Shown here: positions 4,906 to 37,324 of the stretch, piece after piece
How positions within the stretch are numbered: position 1 is the stretch's first letter
How the letters are laid out: the number at the start of each line of letters is the position of its first letter
Source of the DNA: an uncultured Oscillospiraceae bacterium
GTDB taxonomy: Bacteria > Bacillota > Clostridia > Oscillospirales > Oscillospiraceae
Assembly (NCBI GenBank): GCA_944385445.1
Contig: CALWXF010000015.1
Span: 1-51,295, forward strand
Direction: 5' to 3'
DNA: 51,295 bases
Notes under the pieces: generated by a model
What the model saw: only the letters and a program-made list of their open reading frames with translations
Database searches by the model: none
What the model was told of the DNA's origin: nothing
Translations under genes and position numbers: made by a program

Positions 4906-5262
4906 TTAGGCCAGCTTGCTCTTGGCCAGCTCGGTGAGCTGGGTGAAAGCGGCCTTGTCGTTGACGGCCAGCTCGGAGAGCATCTTGCGGTTGATCTCCA
5001 CGCCAGCCAGCTTCAGGCCGTGCATAAAGGTGGAGTAGTTCATGCCGTTGGTCTTGCAAGCGGCGTTGATGCGGGCGATCCACAGCTGACGGAAGTCACG
5101 CTTCTTCAGCTTGCGGCCGGTGTAGGCGTACTGCAGGGACTTCATCACCTGCTCGTTGGCCATCTTGAAGTGCTTGCTCTTGGCACCCCAGTAGCCCTTG
5201 GCCAGCTTCAGGATCTTATTTCTTCTCTTACGGGTCATCATTGCGCCCTTAACTCTTGCCAT
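4906..5262 (-). CDS. rplT: 50S ribosomal protein L20
   Basis: 118-aa ribosomal protein needed early in 50S assembly, binding 23S rRNA; in B. subtilis and E. coli it also represses its own operon. The sequence [19 protein letters not shown], then [20 protein letters not shown] and [20 protein letters not shown] is unmistakable. Start at 5262 has AGGAGG about 10 nt upstream. It is the last gene of infC-rpmI-rplT, 39 nt after rpmI, and is followed by a terminator. Confidence 0.98.
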
Positions 5263-5558: not shown

Positions 5559-6086
5559 TTACTTGTTGGTCTTGCTGCTTTTAGCGGAGAGGAAAATGCT
5601 CATGTGCCGGCCCTCCAGCTTGGGCTCCTTGTCCAGGTTGGCCAGCTCGGCGCACTGCTGGGCAAAGTCCATGAGCAGATTGCGGCCGATTTCGGTGTGA
5701 GCCATCTCACGGCCACGGAATCGCACGGTTACCTTCACCCGGTTGCCGTCAGCCAGGAACTTCTGGGCGTTGCGCAGCTTGGTGTTGAAGTCACCGATGT
5801 CGATGCCGGGGGACATGCGCACTTCCTTGATCTCAACGACGTGCTGGTTCTTCTTGGCCTCTTTCTCCCGCTTGGCCTGCTCGAACTTGAACTTGCCATA
5901 GTCCATGAGCTTGCACACAGGGGGGACGGCGTTGGGAGAGATTTTTACCAGGTCCAAACCGGCCTCGTCGGCGTGACGCTGGGCCTGAGCCGCAGACATG
6001 ACGCCCAGCTGGCTGCCGTCGGCGCCAATCAGGCGAACCTCACGGTCACGAATCTCCTCGTTGATCTGATGGGTTGGGTTAGCTAT
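5559..6086 (-). CDS. infC: Translation initiation factor IF-3, apparent AUA start
   Basis: Binds the 30S subunit, keeps subunits apart and proofreads the start codon and initiator tRNA. The 175-aa frame begins (I)ANPTHQINEEIRDREVRLIG, has the N-domain/linker KLMDYGKFKFEQAKREKEAK and the C-domain RFRGREMAHTEIG, full length for IF-3. No ATG, GTG or TTG fits: the nearest internal ATG would remove much of the N-domain. AGGAGG (rc of 6096-6101) lies 9 nt before an ATA at 6086-6084, so ATA is the likely start. IF-3 genes elsewhere use AUU or similar rare starts, letting IF-3 repress its own synthesis. The ATA overlaps the UAG of a short upstream ORF. The N-terminal assignment rests on this reasoning alone. 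Confidence 0.93.
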   Translation of the reverse strand: MANPTHQINEEIRDREVRLIGADGSQLGVMSAAQAQRHADEAGLDLVKISPNAVPPVCKLMDYGKFKFEQAKREKEAKKNQHVVEIKEVRMSPGIDIGDFNTKLRNAQKFLADGNRVKVTVRFRGREMAHTEIGRNLLMDFAQQCAELANLDKEPKLEGRHMSIFLSAKSSKTNK

Positions 6087-6187
6087 GGCAAAGCACCTCC
6101 TGAGAAACAAAAAATGTGAGTGCAGAACAAGCACCCACATCCACAACAAAAAACGACAACCGAATTCGATTGCGTGTTTTTTACCAT
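6083..6187 (-). CDS. Cys-rich 34-codon leader ORF overlapping infC
   Basis: Starts at ATG 6187 preceded by AAAGAGGT, and encodes MVKNTQSNSVVVF followed by CCGCGCLFCTHIFCF and a short tail. Six Cys codons fall within 14 codons. Its TAG stop (6085-6083) overlaps the ATA start of infC as ATAG, an arrangement that would allow translational coupling. The ORF runs through the leader terminator hairpin (6109-6139), so a translating ribosome would disrupt it. I know no named family for this peptide. It could be a regulatory leader peptide (for example sensing cysteine or ribosome availability), or the Cys codons could be a by-product of the GT-rich hairpin. Confidence 0.45.
   Translation of the reverse strand: MVKNTQSNSVVVFCCGCGCLFCTHIFCFSGGALP
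6109..6139 (-). terminator. Attenuator-type terminator in the infC leader
   Basis: On the reverse strand TGTGGGTGC, loop TTGTTCT, GCACTCACA, one G-U pair, directly followed by TTTTTT. It lies after the operon promoter and before the infC ribosome binding site, so it would stop transcription before infC. In B. subtilis the same operon is controlled by L20-dependent leader termination; whether L20 acts here is unknown. Confidence 0.7.
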
Positions 6188-6254
6188 GTAAACCTCTTTG
6201 CCTTGCGCTGGAGGTGAGGACGGCGGTGCCATACCTGCTTTGTTTTGCTCTGGT

Positions 6255-6283
6255 ATTATATCAAGTGGATATGGGATTGTCAA
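6255..6283 (-). promoter_or_regulatory. Consensus promoter of infC-rpmI-rplT
   Basis: Perfect TTGACA (6278-6283), 17-nt spacer, perfect TATAAT (6255-6260) on the reverse strand. The -35 and spacer lie inside the last codons of the upstream MATE gene, leaving a leader of roughly 160 nt before infC. Confidence 0.9.
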
Positions 6284-8431: not shown

Positions 8432-8456
8432 AGCGGGCAGAGACAAGTGAATACCA

Positions 8457-8657
8457 TGTCTTCAGGGCGGGGTGAAATTCCCCACTGGCGGTACAGTCCG
8501 CGACCCGCAGAGCAGTTGCTCTGTGGCTGACCCGGTGAAACTCCGGGACCAACGGTTATAGTCCGGATGGAAGAGGATGTGCAAGGGCTCCAAATGGGGT
8601 TGTTGCGCCTGAACGGCATTGGCGTTTGGGCGTCTCAATATCATTTGGAGGTTTTTT
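8457..8657 (+). promoter_or_regulatory. FMN riboswitch (RFN element) with expression platform
   Basis: The aptamer (8457-8578) shows the invariant RFN blocks in order: CTTCAGGGCGGGGTGAAATT, CCCCACTGGCGGTA, AGTCCGCGACCC, TGACCCGGTGAAACTCCGGG, ACCAACGGTTATAGTCCGGA and TGGAAGAG. Downstream, CTCCAAATG (8588-8596) can pair with CATTTGGAG (8642-8650), whose end holds the ribU ribosome binding site and which is followed by TTTTTT. The platform could therefore stop transcription, hide the ribosome binding site, or both when FMN is bound. This predicts riboflavin uptake is shut off when FMN is plentiful. Confidence 0.97.
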
Positions 8658-8660
8658 ATT

Positions 8661-9383
8661 ATGTGGAACAATCTGACGAACCTGTGGGCCAGCGCACAGG
8701 ACAATGTGGTGTATCTTCTGGTATGCCTGGGGGTCTTTGTGGCCCTGTTTGTGGTGGCCATGCTGGTGGAACGGGTGTGGCTGAAGGTACCCCGGCAGCA
8801 GGGCGCCCGGCGGGCGGCGTACATCGGTATCTTTGCCGCCATGGCCGCCATCCTCATGTACCTGGAGTTTCCCCTGCCCTTCGCCCCCAGCTTCTATGAA
8901 ATTGACCTCAGCGAGGTGCCCGTGCTCATCTGCTCCTTCTCCCTGGGCCCTGTGGCGGGTGTGGTGTGCGAGCTGGTGAAGATCATCCTCAAGCTGCTGC
9001 TCAAGGGCACCACCACCGCCTTTGTGGGCGACTTCGCCAACTTCGTGGTGGGCTGCTCCTTCATTCTCCCCGCCACCATCGTCTACCACCGCTTCAAGAC
9101 CAAGAAGGGGGCCATCGCAGGCATGGCCACCGGTACCGTGGTGATGGCCGCTTTTGGCAGCTTCTTCAACGCCGTGTATTTGCTCCCCGCCTTCTCCGCC
9201 CTCTACGGGGTGCCCCTGGACCAGCTGGTGGCCATGGGCACGGCGGTCAACGGCATGATCAACAGCGTGTCCACCCTGGTGCTCTTTGCCGTGGTGCCCT
9301 TTAACCTGCTCAAGGGCGCGGTGGTGTCGGTGCTCACCACCCTGCTCTACAAGCGCATTGAGCGGCTGCTGCGGATGCGGTGA
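8661..9383 (+). CDS. ribU: Riboflavin ECF transporter substrate-binding subunit RibU
   Basis: Membrane S-component that binds riboflavin and works with the shared ECF energising module (not in this window). The 240-aa protein has six or so hydrophobic helices. Family features are the AAMAAILMYLEFPLPFAPSF stretch, then YEIDLSEVPVLICSFSLGP and GVVCELVKIILKLLLKGTTT, all typical of clostridial RibU. It has an unusual extra N-terminal hydrophobic segment. The ATG at 8661 has GGAGG 9 nt upstream within the riboswitch platform. The FMN riboswitch upstream confirms the substrate. A terminator follows. Confidence 0.93.
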   Translation: MWNNLTNLWASAQDNVVYLLVCLGVFVALFVVAMLVERVWLKVPRQQGARRAAYIGIFAAMAAILMYLEFPLPFAPSFYEIDLSEVPVLICSFSLGPVAGVVCELVKIILKLLLKGTTTAFVGDFANFVVGCSFILPATIVYHRFKTKKGAIAGMATGTVVMAAFGSFFNAVYLLPAFSALYGVPLDQLVAMGTAVNGMINSVSTLVLFAVVPFNLLKGAVVSVLTTLLYKRIERLLRMR

Positions 9384-9767: not shown

Positions 9768-9796
9768 ATGATACCACCGGGAAAGTGAGGGGTCAA
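9768..9796 (-). promoter_or_regulatory. Promoter of the DUF2007-like gene
   Basis: TTGACC (9791-9796), 17-nt spacer, TATCAT (9768-9773) on the reverse strand; the -35 overlaps the end of larC. Confidence 0.6.
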
Positions 9797-11040
9797 GACT
9801 CCTTGTGGAAAATCTGTTTCAGGGTGATCTTGTGCTCCCGGGCGATGCGGGCCATGTCCTCATACTCCGGCTTTGAGCGGGAGACCCCATAGCCCTGGGC
9901 CCTCTTCACCCGCACCGGGCCGTAGGGGGTGTCCCGGGTGGTCATGGTGTAGTTCAGAACGTGCTTTTCACAGGTGCGCACCCGCAGCCCGGTGGTGGAG
10001 GTGAGGGCGAATACCTGACGGATCAGGTGCTCTTTGTGGGACCCATCGCACAGGGCCACCAGCTGCCAGCCGGGGCGGCCCTTCTTCATGCAGCCGGGCA
10101 GGGTGTACACGTCCAGGGCCCCCTCCTCTAAAAGCCGCTGGCAGGCAAAGGACAGGGCCTCGGGGGTCATGTCGTCCAGGTTGCACACCAGCTCCAAAAT
10201 CTCGCCCCCAGAGGCCTGGGTGTGGCCCAGCATGGCCCGGACACAGTTGGCGGCGGAAAATTCCTTTTTACCCATGCCGTACCCGGTTTTCTCCAGCACC
10301 ATGGGGGGCATGGGGCCGAAGCGGGTGGCAAAGGTGGTCAGCAGCGCCGCCCCCGTGGGGGTACACAGCTCTCCCTGGATGTCTCCGCCGTAGCAGGGCA
10401 CCCCCTCCAGCAGATGGGCGGTGGCAGGGGCGGGGACGGGTACCAGCCCATGGGCGCAGCGGACCATGCCGCTGCCCACATGGACGGGGGAGACCACCAC
10501 CTCGTCCGGGTGGAGCAGGTACAGGGCGTAGCAGGCTGCTGCCACGTCCGCCACTGCGTCCAGGGCCCCCACCTCGTGGAAGTGCACCAGGCCCACCTCC
10601 ACCCCGTGGGCCTTGGACTCCGCCTGGGCCAGGCGGTGATACACCGCCCGGGCCTGTTCCAGCACCGGGGCGGGGAGGTTTAAGTGGGAGATGAGGTGCT
10701 CCACATTGTGGAGGGTGGTGTGGTGGTGATGATGATGCTCATGGTCGTGCTCATGCTCATGGTCGTGCTCATGTTCATGGTGGTGATGATGCTCGTGGTC
10801 ATGTCCATGCTCGTGGTGATGGTCCACGCTCTCCTCCCGCTCACCGTGCACCACCACGTCCATATGGGTGCCGGAGATGCCACAGGACTGGGCGGGGACG
10901 GCGTGGAACTCCACCCCAGGCAGCCCCATGTGGTTGAGGGTGTGCAAGAATTCCTCCCGGTTGGGGAGCAGCTCATAGAGCGCGGCGGTGAGCATGTCCC
11001 CGGCGGCGCCCATGTTACATTGTAAATATAAGGTGTTCAT
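9793..11040 (-). CDS. larC: Nickel-pincer cofactor biosynthesis nickel chelatase LarC
   Basis: Inserts nickel into the pyridinium bis-thiocarboxylate mononucleotide, the last step of the nickel-pincer cofactor used by lactate racemase and related LarA enzymes; cytosolic, CTP-dependent. The 415-aa protein begins NTLYLQCNMGAAGDMLTAAL, then GVEVGLVHFHEVGALDAVAD, ELCTPTGAALL and VCNLDDMTPE, all LarC hallmarks. Residues 74-107 are a His-rich linker with 23 His in 34 positions, interleaved with Glu and Asp. The LarC1 and LarC2 parts are in one frame, so no frameshift is needed here. The ATG at 11040 overlaps the larB stop as ATGA. Confidence 0.93.
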   Translation of the reverse strand: MNTLYLQCNMGAAGDMLTAALYELLPNREEFLHTLNHMGLPGVEFHAVPAQSCGISGTHMDVVVHGEREESVDHHHEHGHDHEHHHHHEHEHDHEHEHDHEHHHHHHTTLHNVEHLISHLNLPAPVLEQARAVYHRLAQAESKAHGVEVGLVHFHEVGALDAVADVAAACYALYLLHPDEVVVSPVHVGSGMVRCAHGLVPVPAPATAHLLEGVPCYGGDIQGELCTPTGAALLTTFATRFGPMPPMVLEKTGYGMGKKEFSAANCVRAMLGHTQASGGEILELVCNLDDMTPEALSFACQRLLEEGALDVYTLPGCMKKGRPGWQLVALCDGSHKEHLIRQVFALTSTTGLRVRTCEKHVLNYTMTTRDTPYGPVRVKRAQGYGVSRSKPEYEDMARIAREHKITLKQIFHKES

Positions 11041-11798
11041 TGGGGCAGACCCTCCATTTGATTGATGCGGCTGGCCAGAAATCCGGCTCCGAAGCCGTTG
11101 TCGATGTTTACCACGCTGCACCCGGAGGCGCAGGAGTTGAGCATGGCCAGCAGGGCGGACAGGCCCCCGAAGCTGGCCCCATAGCCCACGCTGGTGGGCA
11201 CGGCGATGACGGGACAGTCCACCAGACCGCCCACCACCGAGGCCAGCGCCCCCTCCATGCCTGCCACGGCGATGACCACCCGGGCCTGCATCAGCTCGTC
11301 CAGGGAGGCCAGCAGGCGGTGCAGGCCCGCCACCCCCACGTCGTAGAGGCGGGTGACCCGGTTGCCCAGCACCTCGGCAGTGAGGGCGGCCTCCTCCGCC
11401 ACGGGCATGTCGCTGGTGCCCCCGGTGGCCACCACGATGGAGCCCACCTGGGGGTGAGGCTGGGGGCTCACCACCCCGATGCGGGGGAGCGGGTGGTAGT
11501 CCATGGGCAGCTCCTGGGCCACCAAGTCCGCCTTGTCCTGGTCCAGGCGGGTGACCAGGATGTTGTGGCTGCCGTTTTTCATCATGGCGGCGGCAATGCC
11601 CGCAATTTGCCGGGGGGTCTTGCCCGCCCCGTAGATGACCTCCGAGGTACCCTGGCGCACGGTGCGGTGGGTGTCCACCCGGGCATAGCCCAGGTTGTCA
11701 AAGGGGGAGCGTTTCAGCTCCAGCACGGCCTGCTCCGGTGTGACGGACCCGTCCGCCACGCCCCGCAGCAGGGCCAGCACATCTTGTTTATTGTCCAT
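11037..11798 (-). CDS. larB: Nickel-pincer cofactor carboxylase/hydrolase LarB
   Basis: Carboxylates nicotinic acid adenine dinucleotide at C5 and hydrolyses it, the first step of nickel-pincer cofactor synthesis. The 253-aa protein has a PurE-like C-terminal half: VVATGGTSDMPVAEEAALTA, TRLYDVGVAGLHRLLA, VVIAVAGMEGALASVVGGLV and VIAVPTSVGYGASFGGLSAL, which are diagnostic. It starts 11 nt inside the end of larE and ends in an ATGA overlap with larC, so the three genes form a tight operon. Confidence 0.95.
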   Translation of the reverse strand: MDNKQDVLALLRGVADGSVTPEQAVLELKRSPFDNLGYARVDTHRTVRQGTSEVIYGAGKTPRQIAGIAAAMMKNGSHNILVTRLDQDKADLVAQELPMDYHPLPRIGVVSPQPHPQVGSIVVATGGTSDMPVAEEAALTAEVLGNRVTRLYDVGVAGLHRLLASLDELMQARVVIAVAGMEGALASVVGGLVDCPVIAVPTSVGYGASFGGLSALLAMLNSCASGCSVVNIDNGFGAGFLASRINQMEGLPQ

Positions 11799-36039: not shown

Positions 36040-36411
36040 ATGGAAAAGAGAGTTGTCGTTGGAGGCAGTCGAACATTTCAGGATTATTCCTTTCTAAGTC
36101 ATGCATTGGACCGTTGCCTGTCACGGATTATGAAAGAATATCAAATTATTATTCTGTCCGGCCATTGCAGAGGTACGGATGCCTTGGCGGAGCGGTATGC
36201 CAAGGAGCGGGGGTTATCTCTGGAAATTTACCCCGCAGATTGGAGTCTGGGGCGAAAGGCGGGTCCGCTCCGCAATCAGAAGATGATCGATCTTGCAGAT
36301 TATGTAGTGGCGTTTCCTGGGGGCGGGCCGGGGACGAAATCACTGATTCGTCTGGCAGAGAAAAAGGGCCTTCCCATGCGGATTTATCCTGTAGAAGAAA
36401 GAAATTCCTAA
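36040..36411 (+). CDS. YspA-type SLOG protein (DUF2493)
   Basis: 123-aa protein of the SLOG superfamily, predicted to bind a nucleotide-like ligand. It has VVVGGSRTFQDYSFLSHALD, IILSGHCRGTDALAERYAKE, then LGRKAGPLRNQKMIDLADYV and AFPGGGPGTKSLIRLAEKKG, matching the DUF2493 pattern closely. Such proteins are common in phages and mobile regions, and SLOG proteins are proposed sensors or effectors in conflict systems. GGAGG lies 8 nt before ATG 36040. Divergent from the XRE gene. It is the second SLOG gene in the window. Confidence 0.85.
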   Translation: MEKRVVVGGSRTFQDYSFLSHALDRCLSRIMKEYQIIILSGHCRGTDALAERYAKERGLSLEIYPADWSLGRKAGPLRNQKMIDLADYVVAFPGGGPGTKSLIRLAEKKGLPMRIYPVEERNS

Positions 36412-36440
36412 AAAATATTCTAAAAACGGGTGAGTTACAT

Positions 36441-36474
36441 AAAAAAGGTGGAAGCAGCTGCTTCCACCTTTTTT
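36441..36474. terminator. Perfect bidirectional terminator
   Basis: AAAAAAGGTGGAAGCAG and CTGCTTCCACCTTTTTT form a perfect palindrome between convergent genes. Confidence 0.88.
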
Positions 36475-36487
36475 GATGTAAGAGGTT

Positions 36488-37324
36488 TCACTTGTTGAGA
36501 ATGTACCGCTCAATGGCAATGGCGGCCCCGTCCTGGTCATAGGGCAGGGTGACAGCGTCCGCCGCTGCCTGGATGTGCGGGGCGGCGTTGCCCATGGCCA
36601 CGGAGAACCCGGCAGCCTGGAGCATGGACAGGTCGTTGCCGCTGTCCCCGATGGCCATGACGTGGGCGGGGTCGATGCCCAGCAGCCCGCACACGTCCTG
36701 TAAGGCGTTGCCCTTGGTGCTCTGGGTGTGGGCGATCTCAATGGTGTGGGGCCCGGACCAGAAGTGATTGAGGGGCAGGGTGCCCAGCCGGGCGCAGACC
36801 TGGTCCCGGAGGGGATCGGGGATGTGGGGGAGGTTGATCTTGTCGATGTTCAGACCCGGCGTGTGGGCGGTGCGGACGAGGTCGTCCACCACCACGCCCC
36901 GCTTGCCCAGCACCACATCCAGGTGGTAGCCGATGAATTCCCGGAAGGGCTGCTCCATGTCCCAGCTCTCCTGGGTCAGGTACATGTGGCCCTGGGCGGA
37001 CAGCTCCACGGGGAAGCGGAATTCTCCCGCCAGCTCTACCACCGCCTGGGCCACTTCGGGGGGAATGTAGTGGCCCCGCAGCAGTTCTCCGGTGGGAATG
37101 CGGCGAATCTCGCCGCCGTTACACAAAATGCACAGGTTTTCCCATGCCGCCCCAGTCTGTACCGGGGGCGGGAGGAGAAAGTGCTGCCGTCCGGTGGTGG
37201 GTACGATGGCCACCCCTTTGGCGTGGGCCTCCGCCAGAGCCTGGTGGAGGCGGGGGGTGAAGCTCTGGTGATCGGCTTGCAGGGATGTGCCGTCCAAATC
37301 CATGGCGAGAAGTTGAATGTCCAT
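36488..37324 (-). CDS. HAD-superfamily phosphatase, Cof type
   Basis: Cytosolic sugar-phosphate or FMN-type phosphatase of the HAD-IIB (Cof) group, 278 aa. Motif I is MDLDGTS with nucleophile D9 and D11; motif II is VPTTGR; motif III Lys lies in STKGNAL; motif IV is IGDSGNDLSML. The cap domain lies between motifs II and III. Substrate unknown. AAGGAGG precedes the ATG at 37324. A MupG remnant lies directly upstream on the same strand; together they hint at a lost sugar-phosphate or wall-recycling operon. Confidence 0.88.
   Translation of the reverse strand: MDIQLLAMDLDGTSLQADHQSFTPRLHQALAEAHAKGVAIVPTTGRQHFLLPPPVQTGAAWENLCILCNGGEIRRIPTGELLRGHYIPPEVAQAVVELAGEFRFPVELSAQGHMYLTQESWDMEQPFREFIGYHLDVVLGKRGVVVDDLVRTAHTPGLNIDKINLPHIPDPLRDQVCARLGTLPLNHFWSGPHTIEIAHTQSTKGNALQDVCGLLGIDPAHVMAIGDSGNDLSMLQAAGFSVAMGNAAPHIQAAADAVTLPYDQDGAAIAIERYILNK

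Follow-up and report, generated by a model that had tools for sequence, protein, structure and literature searches.

In Escherichia coli, infC has an AUU start codon and is autoregulated by its product, IF-3, and Choonee et al. are said to have described, in 2007, an L20 leader of the infC-rpmI-rplT operon of Bacillus subtilis. Amino-acid attenuators that depend on leader peptides are those of the trp, his and ilv type, in which a brief coding frame enriched in codons for one amino acid extends over the terminator hairpin. According to two reports, the binding of L20 at the junction of helices H1 and H2 of the B. subtilis leader stabilises the terminator (PMC6097659; PMC10931766). The start of B. 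subtilis infC is given as ATT (PMC6097659), and a study of Staphylococcus aureus places an AUA start on infC by Ribo-Ret (PMC13009471).

The window analysed here, a stretch of 51,295 nucleotides from an uncultured Oscillospiraceae bacterium (GCA_944385445.1, contig CALWXF010000015.1), carries an infC operon that lies on the minus strand together with its promoter and leader. The leader belongs to a known family of attenuators, from which its sequence has diverged, and the start codon that follows it is of a known kind. The reading in which an L20-type attenuator of infC-rpmI-rplT is combined with a weak AUA start and an incidental Cys-rich open frame is very probably right as a whole. The leaders of the window and of B. 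subtilis have in common the operon, the H1/H2 core, an optional helix H3, a terminator just before infC and two mutually exclusive folds. However, the stem sequences in the window differ from those of B. subtilis, the score falls below the Rfam gathering score, and dependence on L20 would follow here by analogy.

The sigma-70-type promoter (6255..6283) reads TTGACA-17-TATAAT and matches the consensus at 12 of 12 positions; shuffles of the 1901-base region yielded a mean of 0.6 sites scoring at least 9/12. The upstream MATE transporter gene, whose frame ends at 6261, includes the -35 hexamer in its 3′ end, so that promoter and coding end have bases in common. From the inferred transcription start at about 6249, the leader extends for approximately 160 nt to the ATA at 6086-6084, and an AGGAGG Shine-Dalgarno sequence (6096..6101) precedes this ATA by nine bases. 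Three genes follow in the order infC (5559..6086; TIGR00168, 3.3e-69), rpmI for L35 (5302..5505; TIGR00001) and rplT for L20, the expected regulator (4906..5262; TIGR01032), which places the element in the 5′ leader of infC-rpmI-rplT, as is the case for RF00558 (L20_leader). The consensus promoter, the leader of about 160 nt and the AGGAGG of infC had all been described in an earlier note on this DNA, and all are present.

Of 60 near genomes, the own one among them, 55 yielded IF-3, and the loci used from titled records were the best 80 of at least 562 confirmed IF-3 loci; among these best 80, Pseudoflavonifractor sp. An44 stands closest, with an IF-3 identity of 99%. This relative has been cultured, and there is little difference in its leader. 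The addition of 25 further stretches gave 125 distinct leaders for the start-codon count, that of the window included. Upstream frames were compared in 124 distinct leaders, likewise including that of the window (L135 was too short and was dropped), and terminator and antiterminator were scored in 121 of these 124, the three leaders without the anchor motif being left out.

The leader is predicted to fold more stably than expected by chance, with z values of -3.4 and -3.9 against dinucleotide shuffles. Helix H1 (6217..6236), with AGG...CCU at its base, forms the first half of a predicted core resembling an L20 site, and helix H2 (6193..6214; CCUC.GC...GC.GAGG) is supported by both the predicted fold and the alignment. 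These are followed by a variable helix, H3 (6142..6188), also from the predicted fold, and by an intrinsic terminator hairpin with its T run (6109..6142), on which hairpin scan, fold and alignment agree. The hairpin and TTTTTT had been noted before as a 9-bp structure; both exist, but the hairpin is longer, with 11 bp when folded and 12 pairs when scanned (6142-6112), and TTTTTT comes after it. Every one of the 121 leaders examined has a hairpin with a T tail. Across 35 leaders, 92.9% of the cells of H1, H2 and terminator are paired, 10 of 17 pairs have changed on both sides, and covariation reaches 0.321 compared with 0.056-0.129 for slid versions. The three basal pairs of H1 are paired in 99.0% of cells in these 35 relatives (one of the three has changed on both sides), and compensatory change affects five of the nine pairs of the H1/H2 core.

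In a focused Rfam scan of the leader, RF00558 aligns over its full length at 6246-6102 with 28.6 bits, below its gathering score of 58.7 bits, and none of the 60 near genomes (own included) exceeds that score. Searched at genome scale, RF00558 has six matches in the own genome, of which four, among the matches listed, lie away from the infC leader; the remaining two could include it or not. Below-threshold matches (E 5e-4 to 0.28) at the infC leader were seen in seven of ten relatives' loci scanned, the placement in one of them (L028) coming from the same place in the genome-scale search; RF00558 was not found in the remaining three (L009, L010 and L086). Rfam alone was rejected as proof, since the genome-scale search gave many chance-like places. 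RF00558 being too weak at that scale, a lineage covariance model, R1, was built from 35 leaders with IF-3 identity of at most 83%, picked for diversity from the 121 anchored leaders. The training excluded every locus that was known to share the genus of the window, by a filter that did not use the genus of titled records. The training leaders were selected by the anchor CTC[AG]CC, which makes the invariance of that block partly a product of selection.

R1 matches the window over the whole attenuator region at 6084..6249 (109.6 bits, E 2.8e-24), and in the genome search the leader is the sole match reported at E<=1 (109.6 bits, E 1.2e-22), a score that is in part not structural, as R1 spans the columns of the Shine-Dalgarno sequence and start codon. 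Across 99 genomes of the class, own included, R1 (E<=0.01) has matches in 67 and RF00558 (E<=1e-4) in 75. Most of these places lie directly upstream of infC, on the same strand and within 250 bases (67 of 69 for R1 and 73 of 79 for RF00558), and 52 of the 79 RF00558 places overlap R1 places. One or the other model matches upstream of infC in 88 of the 97 class genomes that have the gene. RF00558 exceeds its gathering score in 21 of the 99 genomes, and since 19 of these 21 places coincide with R1 places, the gathering score is taken here to mark the sensitivity of the search and not a property of the biology. A search of the assembly for 23S rRNA, for comparison with the L20 site, returned no match. 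By homology and location, the leader belongs, as a divergent member, to the L20 leaders (RF00558) of infC-rpmI-rplT, and it scores below the Rfam cut-off.

Like RF00558, the leader has a rho-independent terminator before infC that is excluded by an alternative pairing. The predicted antiterminator (6130..6230) joins GGCACC..CGUCC on the 3′ side of H1 to GGAUG..GGUGCU in the 5′ arm of the terminator, as indicated by pairing energies, alignment and fold, and its formation excludes both H1 and the terminator. Scored over 121 of the 124 leaders, the two sides pair better on average with their own partners (mean -16.0 kcal/mol) than with swapped ones (-13.5 kcal/mol), and 0 of 5000 permutations were as low, although the arms of 24 other leaders pair better with the H1 side of the window than its own arm does. 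When either side is reversed, the effect disappears over the full set, own minus swapped being +0.07 and -0.04; in the 72-83% subset, a reversed control still gives -0.85 (0 of 2000 permutations) compared with -2.52 for the real pairing. Complementing both sides gives -2.42 (0 of 2000), which is not counted as a null because complementing retains Watson-Crick pairs. The effect is small within the genus, where 136 of 2000 permutations were as low. Scored on the fixed alignment, the antiterminator has 80.9% of its cells paired, and the percentage paired, the covariation and the number of cells changed on both sides all exceed every shuffle; the number of pairs that have changed and the number of pair types stay within the range of the shuffles (268 and 161 of 500). 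Antiterminator covariation is 0.213, with a slide of -2 nearly equal at 0.196. In the longer fold, CACCUCC of the leader is also predicted to pair with the GGAGGUG of infC, and four pairs of this region appear in the consensus; this pairing was set aside as evidence, as it hardly varies and is uninformative either way.

These comparisons bear on one alternative, a bare terminator followed by a non-AUG start without any ligand-dependent switch. The Rfam score below the cut-off would agree with it, as would the fact that L20 binding is predicted here by analogy. Such an arrangement leaves unexplained the strongly conserved 5′ element (the leaders having been chosen by one of its blocks), the compensatory changes in H1 and H2, the alternative pairing and the coincidence of R1 and RF00558 places across the class, and it is the least probable of the readings weighed here. 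Termination in the leader under control of the L20 type, which the earlier note had named as background, instead emerges as the main function, by homology, structure and class-wide coincidence.

The folding of the L20-type attenuator can be followed along the transcript. As long as synthesis has gone no further than the 5′ arm of the terminator, the transcript of the window is predicted to fold into the antiterminator, in which that arm would pair with the 3′ side of H1 and polymerase would read on. A transcript that reaches the T run folds into H1, H2, H3 and terminator at -48.5 kcal/mol, compared with -44.3 kcal/mol when the antiterminator is forced. This advantage of 4.2 kcal/mol would favour the terminator at equilibrium even without ligand, and read-through would therefore depend on folding order. 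Free L20 in excess would bind the H1/H2 core and hold H1 closed, both the binding and its sign being predicted from B. subtilis; with H1 closed, the terminator arm would be freed and transcription would stop before infC.

In messages that are read through, translation would begin at a weak AUA preceded by a strong Shine-Dalgarno sequence. With the frame taken from protein alignment and the Shine-Dalgarno sequence from the best match, an in-frame ATA, ATC or ATT occurs 3-13 bases after the Shine-Dalgarno sequence in 124 of 125 leaders; the start codons among 124 leaders are ATA in 44, ATC in 43, ATT in 36 and ATG in one. A GTG or TTG is also present, close to the Shine-Dalgarno sequence (3-4 bases after it), in 26 of the 125. 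One leader of the 125 (L117, from genome G050) has an in-frame ATG at normal spacing, with an in-frame ATA shortly after. On this comparison the AT[A/C/T] common to the leaders is taken to be where infC starts. The conserved AUU, AUA or AUC is what is expected of an infC autoregulated by IF-3, and it bears out the AUA start claimed for the window. As an AT[A/C/T] start is kept in 124 of 125 leaders, discrimination of the start codon by IF-3, also claimed previously, is plausible. The AT[A/C/T] start and strong Shine-Dalgarno sequence are shared with other non-AUG infC systems, and by analogy with E. coli and S. aureus the weak AUA would let IF-3 limit its own synthesis. This feedback is probably a second, translational layer of control.

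The same leader contains a Cys-rich open frame of 34 codons (6083..6187 on the minus strand; from the ORF list and the comparison of leaders), which is probably not a gene. It runs from an ATG at 6187 to a TAG at 6083 and encodes MVKNTQSNSVVVFCCGCGCLFCTHIFCFSGGALP, with six Cys in 14 residues; the codons for Cys, TGT and TGC, lie within the terminator hairpin and close to it. An AGAGG lies five bases ahead of its ATG, and its stop overlaps the infC start as ATAG at 6086-6083, an overlap that arises because ATA is followed by a GCN codon. The earlier note had drawn attention to this frame, its ribosome binding site, its six Cys codons in 14 and the ATAG, and each can be found in the sequence. 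Together they would suit attenuation by a leader peptide, in which ribosomes on the Cys frame, slowed by a shortage of cysteine or not, would decide the fate of the terminator, and the overlap of stop and start would couple translation of the frame to infC. The frame also persists in six distinct leaders (L001, L003 and L005-L008), all with IF-3 97-100% identical (rounded), whose peptides contain 6-9 Cys.

Comparison with the remaining leaders speaks against such a peptide. The ATAG overlap is kept in these six of 124 leaders only. A motif search finds a corresponding ATG in 39 leaders and none in 85, and the 39 are distributed over frames 0, 1 and 2 relative to infC as 12, 13 and 14. Frames of at least 30 codons follow 25 of the 39 and are spread over all three frames (10 of the 25 are still open where the examined 60-base slice of infC ends), and a long frame is therefore unremarkable and the open frame not above chance. 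In 19 of 30 distinct leaders of the same genus, the overlapping frame consists of one codon only, preceded by a stop and followed by the overlap. Five ungapped copies of the frame have 16 variable sites, falling as 3/7/6 by codon position, and five of 19 changes are synonymous where a fraction of about 0.25 is expected; in these small numbers there is neither a codon-position bias nor any sign of coding selection. In the predicted fold, the ribosome binding site of the frame is paired within H2, and its ATG lies in the 5′ arm of H3. Unlike attenuators of the trp, his and ilv type, the frame is not conserved, the genes downstream (infC, rpmI and rplT) are unrelated to cysteine, and the switch is already explained by an L20-type structure. 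A cysteine leader peptide was rejected on conservation and substitution pattern and is extremely unlikely, and the layer of ribosome transit and cysteine supply proposed earlier is unsupported. The three-layer scheme is thus reduced to L20 attenuation and a probable IF-3 feedback. Of the two observations that the earlier note had said would count against its proposal, the absence of a conserved upstream frame was found, whereas an ATG start of infC in relatives was seen in only one of 125 leaders.

A more restricted role would belong to a young, lineage-specific frame. The apparent ribosome binding site of the frame is the 3′ arm of H2, whereby initiation and binding of L20 would be exclusive, and ribosomes entering at H2 in a few sister species could compete with L20 and modulate attenuation. 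Five of the six peptides begin with MVKNTQS, which fits a recent common origin of this kind. The lack of any sign of coding selection, in small numbers, points the other way, as does sister leader L004, in which IF-3 is 98% identical and a net difference of one base shifts the ATG into another frame; this proposal is very unlikely. There is an equally slim chance that the attenuator of the sister species recently gained a translated Cys frame on which ribosomes and L20 compete at H2, with transit opening the terminator and reaching the AUA. In the literature, mostly open-access, no upstream frame in an infC leader of this group appeared among the matches listed. The frame looks incidental, an open stretch that happens to cross H3, the terminator and the ribosome binding site of infC.

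Some other features of the window were recorded. An FMN riboswitch lies on the plus strand at 8454-8582 (RF00050, 111.9 bits), followed at 8619-9383 by a frame for a 254-residue membrane-protein-like product, possibly a riboflavin transporter by context. On the minus strand, a frame of 442 residues at 9793-11121 includes a long His-rich stretch, which we take to be of the kind found in nickel-handling proteins. Weak matches to R1 (10.8 bits, E 0.33, plus strand) and RF00558 (E 0.15, minus strand) overlap at 36390-36496, probably on a chance hairpin with a T run.

For the biology of the group, a plausible-looking but unsupported leader peptide can be removed from consideration. In these gut bacteria infC keeps a non-AUG start, and the L20 leader reaches through the group in a form with a co-varying antiterminator, one that escapes the public family model when its cut-off is applied.
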